Positions 2,678 through 9,688 of a DNA stretch of 64,000 nt are shown piece by piece. Positions within the stretch are counted from its first letter, which is position 1. Each line of letters opens with the position of its first letter. The stretch comes from Terriglobia bacterium. GTDB lineage: Bacteria > Acidobacteriota > Terriglobia > Terriglobales > Acidobacteriaceae. The stretch lies in the NCBI GenBank assembly GCA_020073495.1, contig JAIQFD010000005.1, positions 1-64,000 of the forward strand. Reading direction: 5' to 3'. The translations under genes were made by a program, and so were the position numbers. The notes below the pieces were generated by a model. That model made no database searches. It saw nothing but the letters and a program-made list of their open reading frames with translations, and was not told the origin of the DNA.

Positions 2678-3340
2678 TTAAGCTTTGCGGCGGATCTTGC
2701 GCGCGATCCCCAGCAGGCCGGTGCCCAGCAGAACCATCGAAGCCGGTTCCGGAACGCCAGGAGTCGGAGTCTCGGAGCCCAAGGTGATGTTGTCGAAGCC
2801 GATCTGGTTGGCCGTGCCAGTGAATATCACGGACTGCGCTGTGCCGGCAAAGGTCACACCCACCGGGAACCAGGGGCAGAACGCGCCGTAGGTGCATTCC
2901 GGGGCGCCGCCCGAGGGGGTCACCGGCAGGAACAGCGAGGCCAGCAGAGAGCCGGTGCCATCCGGGCCCGACCACACCTCCACGGTGCCCGCATTGTTGA
3001 CCGCCGAGTAGAAGAACGAGAAACCGGTGGTAAAACCGGCTGCCACGTTCATGACGTCGCCCGGGCCGGTGAGGAAGAACGCGATGGTGGGCATCGTCGG
3101 AGAGCCGGAGAAGTTCCCATTGCCCCCGTTCGCGCCGGAGATGAGCGACAACGCGTCGGGACCAAAGGAGATCCCGAAGTTCGGGCCCGGCCCACTACCC
3201 AAATCACCCGTGCCACCGTTGTAAAAGTTGAGGATGTGCTCGCTATCCTTCAGCCCTTCGAAGGTCAGCGTGATGACATTGGCCGATGCCATCGCGCACA
3301 GAAGCAGAACAACAAGGGACGCTGTTAACAGTCGACGCAT
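2678..3340 (-). CDS. PEP-CTERM sorting-domain protein (220 aa)
   Basis: The ATG has GGGGAG five bases upstream; the frame extends further 5' but without signal-like sequence. Residues 1-20 are a signal peptide. The mature part is rich in Gly, Ser, Asn and Thr with alternating beta-type strands and reads like a secreted adhesion-type domain. The C-terminus carries the sorting signal: VPEPASMVLLGTGLLGIARK, that is a VPEP motif, a hydrophobic helix and a basic tail. PEP-CTERM proteins are exported, processed by exosortase and linked to exopolysaccharide production. No exosortase gene is in the window. A conserved 15-bp motif lies about 250 bp upstream. Confidence 0.9.
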   Translation of the reverse strand: MRRLLTASLVVLLLCAMASANVITLTFEGLKDSEHILNFYNGGTGDLGSGPGPNFGISFGPDALSLISGANGGNGNFSGSPTMPTIAFFLTGPGDVMNVAAGFTTGFSFFYSAVNNAGTVEVWSGPDGTGSLLASLFLPVTPSGGAPECTYGAFCPWFPVGVTFAGTAQSVIFTGTANQIGFDNITLGSETPTPGVPEPASMVLLGTGLLGIARKIRRKA

Positions 3341-3586
3341 ACACACTCCCCACGGTTCAAAGTTGAACACGATGTTGTGTGCACGCAAACGGCCAAAGTG
3401 CATCTCATTGAAAAACAATGACTTCCTACCGGTAGCTCGATTGAAAAGCTGCAACTTCTTGCACATTGGCAGAAGAGAATGTGCACTTCTTTTTCGGCGG
3501 CGGTTGGTCCGGACCAACCGAGGTGGCTTGCCCAGACGACCCGTGCTCGCCTGGCATGGTCCTAAGCTGCGTTCCACAAGAACATT

Positions 3587-3611
3587 CTGAAATCGTCCTC
3601 TAGGCCCGCCT
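3587..3611 (-). promoter_or_regulatory. Copy 3 of the CCTAGAGGACGATTT motif, upstream of the PEP-CTERM gene
   Basis: On the minus strand the core CCTAGAGGACGATTT is identical to two copies on the plus strand near 18,992 and 20,086, with weaker similarity on both sides. Here it lies in the leader region of the PEP-CTERM gene; the first of the other copies precedes the secreted protease gene. A shared regulatory or repeat role is inference. Confidence 0.45.
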
Positions 3612-3702
3612 GTCCGGACGATAACTGTTGATAACAGACCTTAGCACACGATTATTTACTTGACTCAAGATTCGCCTTCTGGTACATTCTCCTCATGGTT
3701 GG

Positions 3703-3846
3703 CTACCGTACTGGTTTCCGCCGTTCCTTTTCAGCGTTGAGCGTCGCGAGATGCTTCTTCGCGTGCTTCAGCACCTTGGGATGGAACACGTGCACCGCTA
3801 GTTCTTCGGTAGTCATCTTGCTCGGGTGTTTCTTCTTCTTCGCCAT
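3703..3846 (-). CDS. Small basic protein of IS1595-type element 1 (47 aa)
   Basis: The frame codes for a Lys- and His-rich protein beginning MAKKKKHPSKMTTEELAVHV, continuing FHPKVLKHAKKHLATLNAEK and ending in a basic tail. It has helix-forming character and no membrane segment. The start codon is only 11 bases from the transposase start on the other strand, and both genes must share or overlap their ribosome-site region (AGG on this strand). I do not recognise the function; a DNA-binding or transposition accessory role would fit its charge and place but is inference. Confidence 0.6.
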   Translation of the reverse strand: MAKKKKHPSKMTTEELAVHVFHPKVLKHAKKHLATLNAEKERRKPVR

Positions 3847-3857
3847 GAGGTAATCCT

Positions 3858-4760
3858 ATGCAGCCGACCAATCTTGTATCCGTAGTGGAGCAATACGCAA
3901 CTGACGACCGCTGCCGTGAGACGTTGACTCATCTGCGCTGGCCCAAGGGCGTTGAATGTCCACGCTGCCACAACAAGGGCATCTCTCGCGCTTATGACCG
4001 CAATGTGTTCGACTGCAATTCATGCCGCCACCAGTTCTCCGTGACGGCTGGCACGATGTTCCACGACTCGCACCTTCCGCTCACGAAATGGTTTCTGGTT
4101 ACGTATCTGATGTGCGAATCGCGCAAGGGAATTAGCGCGAATCAGATCAAGAGAATGCTTGGTATTTCGTACAAGACTGCATGGTATCTCTGCCACAGAA
4201 TCCGCGCAGCGATGGCTGCTGTGCCGCCCCAACCGCTGCTGCATGGCACCGTAGAAGTGGGTGAGACTTACGTTGGTGGCCGTGAGCGCGGCATGGGCAG
4301 CAAACGGAACAAGGAAATCGTAATCGGAATCCGTCAGCGCGGCGGAGAGTTGCGTTTCTTCCATGCCGAGGATGCCAAGAGCGGCACCCTGGCGAAGTAC
4401 ATCAGAGAGAACATCAGCACTGACGCGGTTGACGTGGTTATGACCGATGAGCTTCCCGCATATCCCAAGGCGATGATTGCCGCTGGAGTTCACGGCGATA
4501 AGCACAAGACGATCCGCCACAGAGACAGGGTGTACGTTCGCGGCGACATTCACACGAACACCGTGGAATCCGCGTTCTCGCTTCTCAAGCGCGGCATCAT
4601 GGGAACGTGGCATCGTGTTAGCGCGAAGCATCTTGAAGCCTACCTAAACGAGATGTGCTTCCGGTTCAACAATCGCAAGAACCCGTTCCTGTTTCGTGAC
4701 ACTCTCAAGCGGATGCTCAATTCCGAGAACCTCGAATTCAAGGAACTCATTGCGGCTTAG
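3858..4760 (+). CDS. IS1595-family transposase, catalytic Asp replaced by Gly (300 aa)
   Basis: The N-terminal zinc-ribbon is visible as CPRC at residues 34-37 and CNSC at 53-56. A helix-turn-helix-like stretch GISANQIKRMLGISYKTAW follows. The ISXO2-like catalytic domain then runs to the end. The family pattern VEVDETY appears as VEVGETY, so residue 135 is Gly where the first catalytic Asp is expected. The second Asp (VMTDELPAY, 197) and the NTxE block (HTNTVES, 232-238) are kept. The codon is GGT, one transition from GAT. The protein is otherwise full length. The start has GAGG seven bases upstream. The stop overlaps the convergent membrane protein gene by four bases. Confidence 0.92.
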   Translation: MQPTNLVSVVEQYATDDRCRETLTHLRWPKGVECPRCHNKGISRAYDRNVFDCNSCRHQFSVTAGTMFHDSHLPLTKWFLVTYLMCESRKGISANQIKRMLGISYKTAWYLCHRIRAAMAAVPPQPLLHGTVEVGETYVGGRERGMGSKRNKEIVIGIRQRGGELRFFHAEDAKSGTLAKYIRENISTDAVDVVMTDELPAYPKAMIAAGVHGDKHKTIRHRDRVYVRGDIHTNTVESAFSLLKRGIMGTWHRVSAKHLEAYLNEMCFRFNNRKNPFLFRDTLKRMLNSENLEFKELIAA

Positions 4761-5968
4761 AACCCCATTTTCTTTTCTAGCCCCGCAAATAGGCCGGTAG
4801 TCCACGCCACATATTCATCGGGGTCAAAATCATCAGTTTTGGTGCGAGTTATCTCGGCATTCATCGTCACCACGATTGTATAACTCTGAACCGTGGCGCC
4901 AGTCTGCGTCTGGAACTTCGCGGGCGGCATTCCGCGCCCAGATGCCCCGGATGGCTGGATTGACAGCTCCAAGGTGTAATGCGACGGGCTCTCCAGCCTC
5001 ACGATGCAGGTAAACAACTTGCCCTCTTTGGGGTCCGCTCCTATTTCAAGCAAACTTATGGTCGTGCCCACAGGTACGGTAAAAGGAGTACGCTCGAACA
5101 TCGATCTGGCACTCGGCGTCAAGAATTCATTGCCAGCCAACATCTCAAGCAACTTTCGAGGAGGATAGTTAGTGCTATCGGGAGGGGGGATTGCTTTCCT
5201 ATTGAGCGGGGTAGCACCCTCTCCAAGCGTCACTTTCATGCCGCCGCTGCTGCCAAGATGTAGTAATTGAATCTGTTGCAAGACATAGAACTGTATCAGC
5301 CGCGTCACAAAATTGAAGCGTTCACCCTCTGTACCGATTTTTCGTGGCTCGTGAACGGGCCACTTCGCCTCAACAGCATTGTCTGGAACACCCGAAATGC
5401 CTATCAGGTCAAAATAAAAATCCCGATGGGGATCGTCAAAGTTCTCATCCTGTGGCACCGGCATTTTAGGCGCTGCGGTATTAATCGGAACTAGAGTAGT
5501 GAAGGTGTCGGTTTTCTTAATGGCACGAATAACATTCACTTCCACTTTGGCCCGAGTGGGGATGTTTTCCTGGCGCTCCTTCTCAACATCCTTTGACCGT
5601 GGAAGGTGCTTTGCTAATTCTTCTGCAATCTCTGAAGCCGTCGGTTGGTGTGGTTGTGTGGTGGTCGTGGCCGACTCTGCTGGGGCTTCTCTTGGTCTTG
5701 GCGCGGAGCCTTTCTTTATAAGTAATAGCCACAGAGCAAGACCAACTATGGCAGGTATCAAGACAAAGGCGGCTACAGACATCTTGAGGTTCCCCCTCGC
5801 CCACGTCCCTAGCGTGTCCCAATTGTGGAGAACGGCTAGCAACAGGCCGCCGAATACAAATGTGAAGACCGCAGCCTCAAAGCTAAAAATGTGTTCCAGA
5901 ATGATAGCGAGGGCGGTCAAGACGACACCCTCGACAAGCCAGCGCACGAACTTCTCGGCGGCTGCCAT
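4757..5968 (-). CDS. Passenger membrane protein of element 1, function unknown (403 aa)
   Basis: The N-terminus has two or three membrane segments (about residues 10-27, 30-47 and 61-84) followed by a Pro/Thr-rich linker and a predicted coiled stretch (ASEIAEELAKHL). The rest, about 270 residues, is a soluble domain with mixed alpha/beta character that I do not recognise. Its stop codon overlaps that of the transposase, and the gene ends 41 bp short of the right inverted repeat, so it lies wholly inside the element. It is convergent to the transposase and probably has its own promoter near the element's right end. A role in host or element fitness is possible but unsupported. Confidence 0.8.
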   Translation of the reverse strand: MAAAEKFVRWLVEGVVLTALAIILEHIFSFEAAVFTFVFGGLLLAVLHNWDTLGTWARGNLKMSVAAFVLIPAIVGLALWLLLIKKGSAPRPREAPAESATTTTQPHQPTASEIAEELAKHLPRSKDVEKERQENIPTRAKVEVNVIRAIKKTDTFTTLVPINTAAPKMPVPQDENFDDPHRDFYFDLIGISGVPDNAVEAKWPVHEPRKIGTEGERFNFVTRLIQFYVLQQIQLLHLGSSGGMKVTLGEGATPLNRKAIPPPDSTNYPPRKLLEMLAGNEFLTPSARSMFERTPFTVPVGTTISLLEIGADPKEGKLFTCIVRLESPSHYTLELSIQPSGASGRGMPPAKFQTQTGATVQSYTIVVTMNAEITRTKTDDFDPDEYVAWTTGLFAGLEKKMGF

Positions 5969-6009
5969 TCCTCACTTATACTATACCTTGTGTGAAGGTA
6001 ACAATCCTG

Positions 6010-6018
6010 CCTTAGCAC
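6010..6018. repeat. Overlapping target duplications CCTTAGCA and CTTAGCAC between the two elements
   Basis: Bases 6010-6017 are the right duplication of element 1; bases 6011-6018 are the left duplication of element 2, whose right copy is 8721-8728. The nine bases thus record two successive insertions at nearly the same site. Confidence 0.85.
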
Positions 6019-6097
6019 GGTAATTATCCCTTGTGAACAAGTATAGAATAGAGAGGCCGTGACAGGGATGTGCGGTGACTCGGAAAAAGCGCAAGAT

Positions 6098-6371
6098 ATT
6101 GTGGTAGGCGAAACCTTTCGCCACAATTACGACCCCCATTTGCGCTTGTGTTCTCAGCGAGAATCGGTTATGTAGAAAGAGTGAAGCCCGCTCTGGTAAA
6201 GCGGGCTTCGGGACTTCGATCTTTTGACGGGTTGTGCGGTTTGGGAACCTACTCAGTCCCCATCCTAAGCACTTCTGAATTTCCCGTCAACTGAAAAGTC
6301 GAGGGAGATTCCTGTCTCCAATGGGAGGCGGGTCGTTTCTCCCGGCCTCGGTCTGATACACCGTGGCCGGG
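6098..6371 (+). ncRNA. Structured leader with five or more hairpins in element 2
   Basis: Several strong pairings can be read directly. GGCGAAA/TTTCGCC is at 6107-6122. GAAGCCCGCT/AGCGGGCTTC is at 6183-6209. The long-range stem TTGACGGG (6224-6231) pairs with CCCGTCAA (6283-6290). GGAGA/TCTCC is at 6304-6319. CCCGGCC (6341) pairs with GGCCGGG (ending 6371), extended by CGG/CCG. A second pairing, GGGAG (6323-6327) with CTCCC (6339-6343), would exclude the last one. The block ends about 30 bases before AAAGGAGG and the start of the 40-residue gene. A regulatory leader or a transposon RNA is inferred; no known riboswitch class is recognised. Confidence 0.45.
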
Positions 6372-6417
6372 AGGTCACCATCAACCTTTCACTCTAGCCG
6401 GAAAGGAGGCACCGTAG

Positions 6418-6540
6418 GTGGCGAAAAAAGTTATATACCGCCGCTCGGATACCGGTCAAATTACGACCGAACGATATGCGGACAAACACCCAAAGACAAC
6501 GGAACGCGAAGTAGTCTACGTTCCCAACAAAAACAAATAA
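6418..6540 (+). CDS. Small basic protein of element 2 (40 aa)
   Basis: A GTG start follows AAAGGAGG at eight bases, one of the best ribosome sites in the window. The protein begins MAKKVIYRRSDTGQITTERY and continues ADKHPKTTEREVVYV with a Lys/Asn tail. The pattern of a polar turn followed by YADKHPKTT is shared by many short uncharacterised bacterial proteins of 40-60 residues; I know of no established function. It lies 64 bases before the HNH-like gene and may be cotranscribed with it. It follows the structured leader, which could control it. Confidence 0.7.
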   Translation: MAKKVIYRRSDTGQITTERYADKHPKTTEREVVYVPNKNK

Positions 6541-6604
6541 CCGTACCCTCCCCCGCCGCACAGAACATCGTGCGGCGGGATCTAAGTCAGGCAAAGGAAC
6601 ACTT

Positions 6605-7411
6605 ATGAAGACATGCTGCTTTTGCCAGCGGCCAGCCGATTCCAAGGAACACATTTGGAGTAACTGGATTCTTAAGCTGCTGCCAGATGCCCAAGATGGC
6701 GTATTCACTAAGAGGTTTGCTGACGGAACCTCAAAGTCTTGGCACAAGAAGAAACCAGAATTGAAGGCCGGTGTCGTTTGCGAACGAGCCTGTAATAACG
6801 GATGGATGAGCACGCGGCTCGAACAGCCTATGAAGGCAGCTACCGAAGACATCATTCTGAATAACAAACAGAAGACATTTTTCCCGGAAGATTGCGCTGT
6901 AATTGCGGCGTGGGCATTCAAGACAACCGTGCTCGCCAATCATATTGAACTTAAGGGGGAACCATACTTTCCAGTAAATCAGCGTCATGCGTTTGCCCAC
7001 CACCTAACGATTCCGCCAGGTACACAGGTATGGATTGGGCGACGTAATGCCGGCCACCTGACAGCAAATTGGCGGTCAATTCACCGCATACAGCAACCAC
7101 CAACGCCGCTCAATCCCCACCTAGTTAAAGTCCCGGTGTCACCGTACCGCTTCGAGCATTACACGTGTACGTTTACCATCGGTTATCTTCTTTTGCAGGT
7201 CGTGACCGCACGCTGGACAGAACGGAAGGTCCGCGAGCGTCTCGACTTTCCGCCCATCCTTCAGGCGGAGGTCATCGACGACTACGCTATTCCGATATGG
7301 CCCAAGAGGGTCTCGTTTGGCTGGCCCCCTCCTGCCGCTGTCGGAAACGCGATGTTCGACCGCTTTTGGGATAGATTTGACACGATTAACCTTCCCGGTT
7401 GGATGCGGTGA
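6605..7411 (+). CDS. HNH-like zinc-motif protein, passenger of element 2 (268 aa)
   Basis: The N-terminus has CCFC at residues 4-7, then KEHIWSNWI, and near residue 59 VVCERACNNGWM. This Cys2...EH(I)...Cys...CNxGWM layout is that of HNH-like zinc proteins often found on mobile DNA and in defence regions, but the full HNH catalytic triad is not clearly present, so nuclease activity is uncertain. The remaining 190 residues have mixed secondary structure and no membrane segment. It is in the same direction as the 40-residue gene. Its start has a weak AGGA-like site (CAAAGGAACACTT). Confidence 0.7.
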   Translation: MKTCCFCQRPADSKEHIWSNWILKLLPDAQDGVFTKRFADGTSKSWHKKKPELKAGVVCERACNNGWMSTRLEQPMKAATEDIILNNKQKTFFPEDCAVIAAWAFKTTVLANHIELKGEPYFPVNQRHAFAHHLTIPPGTQVWIGRRNAGHLTANWRSIHRIQQPPTPLNPHLVKVPVSPYRFEHYTCTFTIGYLLLQVVTARWTERKVRERLDFPPILQAEVIDDYAIPIWPKRVSFGWPPPAAVGNAMFDRFWDRFDTINLPGWMR

Positions 7412-7522
7412 GGTTTGACGTTGCAATTTTGCGCGTGGCACGGCATTATCCCTTCTAGAAGGAATGTGCCGAATCGCCCCGGTCAGTCCGCCAAGAGTGT
7501 CGAGGGGATCGGAAGGAACTAA

Positions 7523-7666
7523 ATGTCTAGGCCCATGAGCAAAGCCAGCAGCGAGATTTCAAAGCCGATTACGAGGTCGGCATTTCACTCGCTGCTGCGG
7601 AAGGCAGCGTCACCCCAAAAGCCTGTGTCGCGTCTTCCGATGAAATCTGCCTCAAAAGAGAAGTAA
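7523..7666 (+). CDS. Small Ser/Lys-rich protein of element 2 (47 aa)
   Basis: The ATG is preceded by GGAAGGA at five bases. The product begins MSRPMSKASSEISKPITRSA and ends in KSASKEK, with a central FHSLLRKAASPQ helix. Its last 98 bases overlap the 3' end of the convergent transposase gene, which weakens the call, since the sequence is constrained by the other frame. The ribosome site lies outside that overlap. No family is recognised. Confidence 0.45.
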   Translation: MSRPMSKASSEISKPITRSAFHSLLRKAASPQKPVSRLPMKSASKEK

Positions 7667-8558
7667 ACATCGGCTGATCGTTTTCCCGCCTGTTGTACCT
7701 GAAAGCGTATTCGTCCAAGTAGCTCTGCAAATACTTTTGGCTCACTTGATGATACACGCCTCCAATCCCTCTCTTTACGAGGCTCCAGAATCCTTCAATC
7801 GTATTCGTGTGCACGTTGCCGCGAACATACACGCCAGCGGAGTGTTTGATTCTCCGATGCTTGTACCCGCGCTCCGTGATGCTGCGGATGCCTTCGTATG
7901 CTGTCAATTCGTCAGTGAAAATCACGGACGCTGGCAGCACATACTTACGGATGTTCGCCAGTAGCGTATTGCCGCGAGTATCGGGCACCGCGAGAGCAAC
8001 AATCTTCCCGCCGCGCTGGACAATTCCTTGTACTGGCGTTTTCTTCTTATCTCCGCGCATCGGGCGACCACGCCCATACTTGCGACTACCGCCCATGAAG
8101 GTTTCGTCGGATTCCACTGAGGAGCCCTCCAATCTGGTTCCAGGCTCACTCATTAGCTGGCGAATCTGTTTGAACATCCGCCATGCCGTTTTGTAGGTCA
8201 CGCCGACTTCGCGCTGTACCTGTTTCGCGGAAATGCCGCAGCGAGTGGAGCTAATCAGGAACATGGCGTGGAACCAGAGCCGAAGCGGAGTAGTGCTTTT
8301 CTCGAAGATCGTATCGGCCAGCGGGTAGATGTGCTTGCCGCAGTAATCGCAAGCCACAGCAGTGCGGCCAGTAACGCGGTGATGTTTCCGCATCTTCCGC
8401 TTGCACTCATCGCTATCGCACCGCGCCATTCCCTTAGGCCAACGCTGCTCAAACACAAATTCAAAGCACGCATCGTCATCCGGGAATTCGCGGTCGAAAT
8501 CAATCTTCGTGTATTTCCGTTCCGGCGGGATTGCTTGGTTGTATTTCTTCGGTTTCAT
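7569..8558 (-). CDS. IS1595-family transposase of element 2 (329 aa)
   Basis: The N-terminal part has the zinc-ribbon pairs CDSDEC (47-52) and CDYC (70-73) and the usual recognition segment GISAKQVQREVGVTYKTAW. The catalytic domain shows ESDETFMGG with Asp at 151, FTDELTAY with Asp at 216, and HTNTIEGFWSL with Asn 252 and Glu 255, matching the IS1595/ISXO2 pattern. It is full length. The start lies four bases after the stop of a 36-residue membrane peptide, with GAGG seven bases upstream, so the two are probably translated from one message. Only about 60% of the motifs resemble the transposase of element 1, so the two elements are distinct subgroups. Confidence 0.93.
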   Translation of the reverse strand: MKPKKYNQAIPPERKYTKIDFDREFPDDDACFEFVFEQRWPKGMARCDSDECKRKMRKHHRVTGRTAVACDYCGKHIYPLADTIFEKSTTPLRLWFHAMFLISSTRCGISAKQVQREVGVTYKTAWRMFKQIRQLMSEPGTRLEGSSVESDETFMGGSRKYGRGRPMRGDKKKTPVQGIVQRGGKIVALAVPDTRGNTLLANIRKYVLPASVIFTDELTAYEGIRSITERGYKHRRIKHSAGVYVRGNVHTNTIEGFWSLVKRGIGGVYHQVSQKYLQSYLDEYAFRYNRRENDQPMFTSLLRQISSEDATQAFGVTLPSAAASEMPTS

Positions 8559-8562
8559 GGCG

Positions 8563-8673
8563 CTACCTCAGCAAGAAATAGATCGCAAGACCAAGAGCCA
8601 CGGCTATCAGAAGCCACCCAATGATTACCCGCGCCTTGTTCTCAGCCTTAAATAGCTCGTCCGACCACTTCAT
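8563..8673 (-). CDS. 36-residue single-span membrane peptide before the transposase
   Basis: The frame codes for MKWSDELFKAENKARVIIGW followed by LLIAVALGLAIYFLLR. A charged N-terminus of about 15 residues leads into one membrane helix. It ends four bases before the transposase start. The ribosome site is weak. It could be a real small membrane protein or a leader that controls transposase translation by coupling. It lies inside the element, 48 bases from its right end. Confidence 0.5.
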   Translation of the reverse strand: MKWSDELFKAENKARVIIGWLLIAVALGLAIYFLLR

Positions 8674-8719
8674 GCTCAAATCTTCGCATAAGGCTTACTT
8701 GTTGTCAAGGGATAATTAC

Positions 8720-8751
8720 CCTTAGCACAAGTGTGCGCTTTTCCTTCGCCT
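8720..8751 (-). repeat. Right arm of the 32-bp inverted repeat
   Basis: It pairs with 2391-2422. Its first bases CCTTAGCAC are the target into which both IS1595 elements were inserted. Confidence 0.8.
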
Positions 8752-8955
8752 CGTCGACCCCAAAGGTCGTGCCGAAAACCTTTGATTTGGACTCGGGAAG
8801 ACTGTGGGGACTTTTGTGGGGACCCCGCGTACATTTCAGATCATCTAGCTACATCAGGGGAGAACTTGGCACAGGTCGCCAACTGACGGTGCAGAAAGGG
8901 GTTGCAGGGTTTTCTGCCGTCGATCCATACACTTCCAGAACTCTTCCGAAAAGGC

Positions 8956-9017
<62 letters not shown>

Positions 9018-9688
9018 GAGTTCTAGTCAGCATCCAATTCCAATGAGAGTGATGTCGGAGAAGGAAGGGCGGAGCCAGAGGTGTGGGCAACGCGGACAAA
9101 ATAGGAAGGGCTGCGACATTGGTTATGCTCTAGCCGCCGACTCTTGCGAGAGAGCCAACAGCGTGGAGGCATGTACCATCGCAGCCCCTGATGTGATTGC
9201 CGCTTTCGCGGTCTCGAACCCCAGCGGCCCCTCGCGAGGACTGCCGGATTTTTCGGGTCCGATCACCGAACGGGTCGCCCCGCCCGGCGAATCACTCGGT
9301 TTACTTCGGACTGACCAAGTTTCCCTGACCAACCCTTTCAACCGTCGACGCACACGAATGTAGATGCTTTGCGAATGCGAGTCAATGCCCGATTGTGGTG
9401 CAATGAAGTGGAAAACGACTCTCTAAAGTGGAAAAGCCGGTGATTCTTGCACGCGAAGAACCGCGGCGAAGGCATGCACGCTGTCCAGTGCAATCCGCGA
9501 CAATGCCCTCCCAATGCGGGTTTCAAGGGAAAATTGTTGGGTTCCACGGGCCGATTTCCACGTCCGGGTGGAAAACAGCGCGTGCGACCAAATCAACCGA
9601 GCGGGCGACTTGGAAGTGAGATACGCCCGCGCGCGATAGACTACTGTGAGATGGAGCGGGACTGCGGTGTCCGCGAGGTGAAGACGCG
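9018..9688. other. Intergenic stretch with repeats upstream of the kinase-regulator operon
   Basis: No frame has both a ribosome site and a convincing protein. Two identical AAGTGGAAAA repeats at 9406-9415 and 9426-9435 are exactly 20 bases apart, and TTTCCAC (9555-9561) faces GTGGAAA (9568-9574) as an inverted pair. These share the half-site GTGGAAA and could be operator sites for the operon that begins at 9689. Confidence 0.45.
9406..9574 (+). promoter_or_regulatory. Repeated GTGGAAA half-sites, possible operator
   Basis: Two direct copies are spaced by two helical turns and one inverted pair lies 120 bases downstream. The regulator encoded next is an NtrC-type activator, a class that often binds repeated upstream sites. 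The link is inference. Confidence 0.35.

Follow-up and report, generated by a model that had tools for sequence, protein, structure and literature searches.

Insertion sequences (IS) that are specific for repetitive extragenic palindromic (REP) sequences have been described in five families, IS3, IS110, IS4, IS256 and IS5, and IS1595 is not named among them in the portions of the survey available to us (Tobes and Pareja 2006, PMC1525189). The tables of this survey give a weak REP association for IS1016 (2/17), with 1/3 for IS1016C2 (PMC1525189), and IS1016 is now classed within IS1595 (PMC8101967, in the part accessible). The same part describes IS1595 elements as relatives of the eukaryotic Merlin transposons and gives an N-terminal zinc ribbon for all IS1595 groups except IS1016 (PMC8101967). 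The literature searched, available partly as excerpts and with most subscription journals outside its reach, held no report of REP targeting or of sharp target choice by IS1595 elements, and in publications mentioning both IS1595 and REP terms the passages available draw no link between them. The IS1595 family was reportedly defined in a 2009 paper. Here we analysed two IS1595-family elements, E1 and E2, which adjoin in one copy of a REP-like repeat in a stretch of 64,000 nucleotides (hereafter the window) from Terriglobia bacterium (assembly GCA_020073495.1, contig JAIQFD010000005.1, positions 1 to 64,000). Most probably, these distantly related elements entered the repeat copy independently and one base apart, with a transposase that reads the core of the repeat. 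REP targeting itself is already known for five other IS families (PMC1525189, as far as accessible) and the new point is the IS1595 case.

Reading of positions 3301-9300 together with the repeat analysis identified two complete elements with the following parts:

3639-3646, + strand: left copy of the E1 target duplication, CCTTAGCA, read from the sequence
3647-6009, + strand: E1, IS1595 family, 2363 bp, recognised by its ends, duplications and transposase
3858-4760, + strand: E1 transposase, 300 amino acids (aa), with Gly at the first catalytic Asp position (residue 135)
4757-5968, - strand: E1 passenger gene, 403 aa, without a Pfam match
6010-6017, + strand: right copy of the E1 target duplication, CCTTAGCA, read from the sequence
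6011-6018, + strand: left copy of the E2 target duplication, CTTAGCAC, offset by one base from that of E1
6019-8720, - strand: E2, IS1595 family, 2702 bp, with 25-bp inverted ends that are 92% alike
6605-7411, + strand: E2 passenger gene, 268 aa, with a CxxC...EHI start and no Pfam match above the cut-off
7569-8558, - strand: E2 transposase, 329 aa, with an intact D-D-E triad
8721-8728, + strand: right copy of the E2 target duplication, CTTAGCAC

Both elements resemble described IS1595 members in their DDE_Tnp_IS1595 domain, inverted ends and 8-bp target duplications (family traits according to the accessible part of PMC8101967). An earlier note, made from the letters of the window, had placed both in one shared 9-bp target; the shared site is real, but the duplications are of 8 bp each, have 7 bases in common and span 9 only jointly. 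The clear inverted ends that it ascribed to both elements hold for E2 (GGTAATTATCCCTTGTGA and GGTAATTATCCCTTGACA), whereas those of E1 (CACGATTATTTACTTGAC and the reverse complement CAGGATTGTTACCTTCAC) are degenerate, agreeing in 13/18 bases. The E1 ends were read directly from the sequence as the automated end finder (at most 4 mismatches) had overlooked this element, and 21 of its first 22 bases are also present at both ends of the related element L015 described below. That both are of IS1595 type with different transposases, as the note had proposed, was borne out by family profiles above cut-off and 40% identity between the two proteins. The bit scores of E1 and E2 were 186 and 198 for NF033547 (cut-off 75), 106 and 130 for DDE_Tnp_IS1595 (cut-off 27) and 44.7 and 22.7 for the N-terminal zinc ribbon (cut-off 25.4, E2 being below it). 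The first catalytic Asp is present in 49 of 50 aligned transposases, the sole exception being E1, which thus has no intact D-D-E triad. As its ends are degenerate and this Asp is replaced by Gly, E1 is, judged by its sequence, a decayed member of the IS1595 family.

The target of both elements is a dispersed, REP-like palindromic repeat, uninterrupted copies of which matched the site obtained by rejoining the sequence across E1 and E2. In the window it is represented by three stretches:

2391-2435, - strand: empty paralogous copy, 84% identical to the rejoined site over 45 bases across the insertion point, with an exact core
3622-3646, + strand: left half of the occupied copy, TAACTGTTGATAACAGACCTTAGCA, which ends in the left E1 duplication and matches the dispersed copies
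8720-8750, + strand: right half of the occupied copy, including the core CCTTAGCACAAGTGTGCGCTTTT (8720-8742, which starts on the final base of E2, a C) and the hairpin GCACA-AG-TGTGC at 8725-8736

The sequence CCTTAGCACAAGTGTGC occurs twice in the window against an expectation of 0.10, once in the empty copy (2406-2422, - strand) and once at the occupied site (8720-8736), where it again starts on the final C of E2. At up to 3 mismatches the core CCTTAGCACAAGTGTGCGCTTTT has 13 copies in the 3.7-Mb genome and its reversed control none; 10 of the copies are empty, and at each of the occupied sites on contigs C5, C4 and C7 one further copy forms the right-hand junction. The empty paralogous copies join across the insertion point as predicted, while the search with the upstream flank of the locus among 61 genomes gave matches in its own genome only and no orthologous empty site. 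The 391 bases upstream of the insertion (3252-3642) are 80% identical to a stretch on C4 (G000 C4:177151-177541). At 2 mismatches a 22-base core was present in 6 of 300 family genomes. The host has 12 copies, the single congener that was examined has 3, and four of the remaining 298 genomes have 1-2 each, the reversed 22-base control matching two family genomes; the repeat is largely confined to the genus.

The full repeat unit is of about 90 bases and consists of TAACTGTTGATAA-N6-TTAGCACAAGTGTGCGCTTTTCCTTCGCC, a spacer and a second palindrome, TAACTGGTGATATGGTCTGTTATCAACAGTTA, in inverse order. Like REP and REPIN sequences, it is a short dispersed palindrome found singly or as inverted doublets (TAACTGTTGATAA...TTATCAACAGTTA). 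Around the eight Y1_Tnp transposase genes of the genome, inspected for an origin of the repeat from a RAYT (REP-associated tyrosine transposase) gene, a single half-copy (81% over 31 bases) lies within about 1.5 kb, near L088. Two of these loci, L087 (G000 C5:192486) and L088 (C1:358919), are bordered by other inverted repeats (GCCCAGGAC... and GCCCCTTCAGGGGC), so the genome seemingly contains several palindromic repeat families. Since some copies of the target repeat stand in same-strand clusters, at spacings of some hundreds of bases, and the ends of some resemble GCCTAAC...GTTAG, we considered whether the elements could be targeting the attC sites of an integron or of a cassette array. This was rejected as hardly credible because no integron integrase passed the cut-off in the genome (TIGR02249 cut-off 265 bits, best match 71), the repeat is present on at least 7 of the 8 contigs, and each half of the unit is also found alone among the 39 matches (E<=1) to the unit or its parts.

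The host genome encodes six complete IS1595 transposases and one fragment. E1, L015 (on C4) and L016 (on C7) are all of its complete E1-type elements, and each of them splits a different copy of the repeat at the same base, with E2 placed one base beyond. Their transposases are 70-86% identical and their DNA 72-81% where alignable, L015 and L016 having perfect 18-bp inverted ends. L016 is flanked by the same 8 bases as E1 (CCTTAGCA), and L015 by the variant CCTGAGCA; as the C4 copy of the repeat is itself variant and both duplications carry the variant, L015 must have inserted into its own repeat copy. The E1 transposase is oriented, relative to the repeat, opposite to those of L015 and L016, which together with the limited DNA identity marks these as separate insertions and not a copied block. 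With 13 sites in 3.7 million bases, the arithmetic chance of a random insertion hitting the exact site is a few in a million. The earlier claim of a repeated target sequence is thereby upheld: the target is a dispersed repeat, entered at one and the same base by each of the three complete E1-type elements of the genome. In this the E1 type is like the REP-targeting elements (IS1397, ISKpn1, IS621, ISPpu9, ISPpu10, ISRm22 and others), with the difference that those fall in the IS3, IS110, IS4, IS256 and IS5 families (PMC1525189, accessible part). Fixed-position insertion in a dispersed host repeat also sets the E1 type apart from the IS1595 family as described, and the placement points to a precise choice of landing site in this family.

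The E1-type transposase itself probably recognises the core of the repeat, which would explain the repeated use of the site; we infer this from the clustering of the target classes on the tree of the transposases. An E1-type insertion would leave its right duplication next to the right half of the repeat, so that the full core CCTTAGCACAAGTGTGCGC is restored on this side and could let a second element enter. Had E2 come first, E1 would have had to enter a copy with the end of E2 in place of its right half. The overlap of the duplications noted earlier stands, but it does not tell that E2 entered the duplication of E1, because either order gives the same sequence. E1 was nevertheless likely the first, as its transposase and right end are decayed and E2 would then have met an intact core.

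Relatives in other genomes were collected by a scan of genome contigs which gave 80 related loci, 46 of them passing our thresholds (duplication 8/8, ends at least 13/18, score at least 22). In one group, three genomes share the duplication ACTGAAGT and a fourth has ACTTGAGT, always inside GGCACG...CGTGCC (CGTGCT in L097); these four relatives occupy the loop of GGCACG[ACTnnAGT]CGTGCC while their outer flanks are unlike. Their genomes hold further target copies, and in each genome one or two empty copies were read. Apart from this group, L105, L111 and L114 form a CATTTCT group, and on a tree made by a quick method, with Shimodaira-Hasegawa-like approximate likelihood ratio test (SH-aLRT) support and no bootstrap, each group is a single transposase clade (SH-aLRT 99 and 100, respectively). 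The target CCATTTCT occurs twice in one genome, at L105 and L111, whose elements are 87% identical where alignable, and the site of L114 is similar. As the repeat at L105 and L111 is at least about 270 bases long and also matches in the control stretch, joint duplication of element and repeat is possible for this pair. Empty copies were read across the insertion point for L097, L098, L100, L107, L108, L110 and L115; for L114 they begin 2-3 bases inside the duplication.

Near-random insertion followed by selection that spares only copies in non-coding repeats would also place elements in repeats, and it gains from the fact that the adjoining DNA is repeat-rich as well, 7 of 18 control stretches having further copies. 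We consider it very improbable, for it explains neither why three copies of a 13-copy repeat in 3.7 Mb were entered at an identical base nor why one duplication recurs in three genomes, with a near match in a fourth.

Structure-guided insertion, in which the transposase attacks extruded hairpins or cruciforms regardless of their sequence, was weighed on 45 elements, L123 being dropped for its short flank. Base-pair symmetry about the duplication centre was 0.44-0.60 at distances 1-6 against 0.25-0.26 in the control (p=4e-10, which is optimistic because the elements are related) and fell below the control, to 0.16, for the innermost two bases. Symmetry of this kind is, however, also what dimeric DDE transposases commonly produce. 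Some sites do lie in hairpin loops, with GGCACGAC(TGAA)GTCGTGCC in L098 and L110 and GGCACGAC(TTGA)GTCGTGCC in L115, and L163 (3471-5403, Phycisphaerales) is an IS1595 element with a 10-bp stem, lying in a nearly perfect 24-base palindrome, ATATGTGACTACATAGTCACATAT, whose centre is its duplication. A stem score of at least 8 was reached at 6 of the 45 sites against 0.8 expected, but hairpins over the duplication, at any centre, were not enriched across the elements (p=0.42). Hairpins over the duplication reach at best a score of 3-4 at the site in the window and at the two sister sites, as in control DNA, and neither of the small palindromes there has its centre at the insertion point. The hairpin proposed earlier is therefore not supported as the target determinant. 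The small palindrome that was said to enclose the target, GCACAAGTGTGC (8725-8736, + strand, with 10 of 12 bases pairing), shares only the last four bases of the E2 duplication and is centred on neither insertion point. Overall, we regard purely structural guidance as unlikely.

Guidance by a host factor, such as gyrase or a REP-binding protein that is bound to the repeat and recruits different IS1595 transposases, would account for the use of one site by E1 and E2 at 40% identity, and for the like targets of L108 and L147, which come from distant IS1595 clades in one other genome, G454. Their duplications, CTAAAAGG and CTCAAAGG (read on the same strand), are alike, both targets have a G-rich run before and TAAA after, and from their sequences the two likely share one repeat. 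On the transposase tree the four target classes, which were defined after the sites had been seen, required 4 changes when taken together, against 8.6 when shuffled; taken singly, the own-genome group required 2 and the TTAC...GTAA group 3. Two of the four classes are single transposase clades and all four are clustered, which together with the mostly unrepeated targets of E2-like elements elsewhere makes recruitment by a host factor improbable in comparison with reading of the core by the transposase.

Several observations weigh against core reading by the transposase, beginning with this late definition of the classes. Within the host genome, no repeat copy was detected in the 9-kb surroundings of an E1-type fragment on C3 (it has no ends and was left out of the count of 3/3 complete copies at one position), and the other two complete IS1595 elements lie elsewhere, at TACGGATA on C1 and at CAGTACTC in an AGTACTC heptamer array on C4. 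The empty copies in G454 cross the insertion point of L108 but match the L147 site in its G-rich part only. Among 18 E1-type loci (L111 left out as it shares a genome with L105), targets with further copies in the genome numbered 10 against 7 for control stretches of 150-210 bp beside the element (E<0.001; Fisher p=0.51), and a looser count including the half-site of L120 and a weak control match of L114 gave 11 against 8 (Fisher p=0.51). These counts are lower bounds, from the best 25 candidates per genome (best 21 and best 25 in the supplementary target and control searches); L147, L149 and L163 were searched for further copies as well but stand outside the 18. Part of the repeat association may hence be attributed to elements living in repeat-rich DNA, as the control stretches are often repeated too, and the case for targeting rests on single-base recurrence. 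General repeat targeting over all relatives was consequently dropped as not significant and retained only where such recurrence was seen.

The E2-like targets, moreover, are mostly unrepeated. Ten E2-like regions were considered, of which L187, L191 and L195 have no credible ends and L192, in a heptamer array, and L194, in a large palindrome, were judged by eye, outside the target-copy search; L192 sits in a TTACC-rich array in another genome. Four of the five others (L186, L188, L190 and L193) have no further target copy and L189 has two, one of them weak (E=0.035). The placement of E2 in a repeat thus rests on one case. The interpretation given in the note is in sum partly supported, the E1-type sisters sharing CCTTAGCA or its variant, while hairpins are not generally enriched and E2-like targets are mostly unrepeated.

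Passenger genes beside the transposase are a habit of IS1595 elements. The passenger open reading frames (ORFs) of five elements in the host genome differ in length (403, 268, 394, 324 and 287 aa), the last three belonging to L015, L016 and L018:

L015, 4478-5662: passenger ORF, 394 aa
L016, 4889-5863: passenger ORF, 324 aa
L018 (G000 C4), 4441-6630: IS1595 element within the AGTACTC heptamer array
L018, 4503-5366: passenger ORF, 287 aa

With a match to PF00227 that stays below the cut-off (E=4e-4), the L015 passenger is similar to a proteasome-type hydrolase, and the CxxC...EHI start of the E2 passenger may point to an HNH-type protein. PADLOC gave no convincing match for a defence role of the passenger genes (one at E=0.023). 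Besides, the neighbouring ORF at 2678-3577 (- strand) looks by eye like a PEP-CTERM protein. Downstream of the locus, 8926-9017 holds a tRNA gene fragment, by eye apparently of tRNA-Ser, which consists of the 3' part without the 5' half; its T arm and acceptor end in CTCTCTCCGCCA (8990-9017), which occurs once in the window. ARAGORN reported tRNA-Pro as the only tRNA in the window. The remnant is possibly the scar of an integrated element.

On a wider and tentative reading, which we consider possible but less likely than not to hold as a whole, the IS1595 transposases of Acidobacteria would form clades, each with a host palindromic repeat of its own that it reads at one fixed base, in some cases in a hairpin loop, such repeats being shared docking sites where unrelated lineages pile up and recognition may be partly structural. 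Related transposases with different sharp natural targets would offer a test bed for the part of a DDE transposase that reads the target. As the first insertion keeps the target core intact for the next, the locus also signifies a route by which composite islands may grow at one spot.

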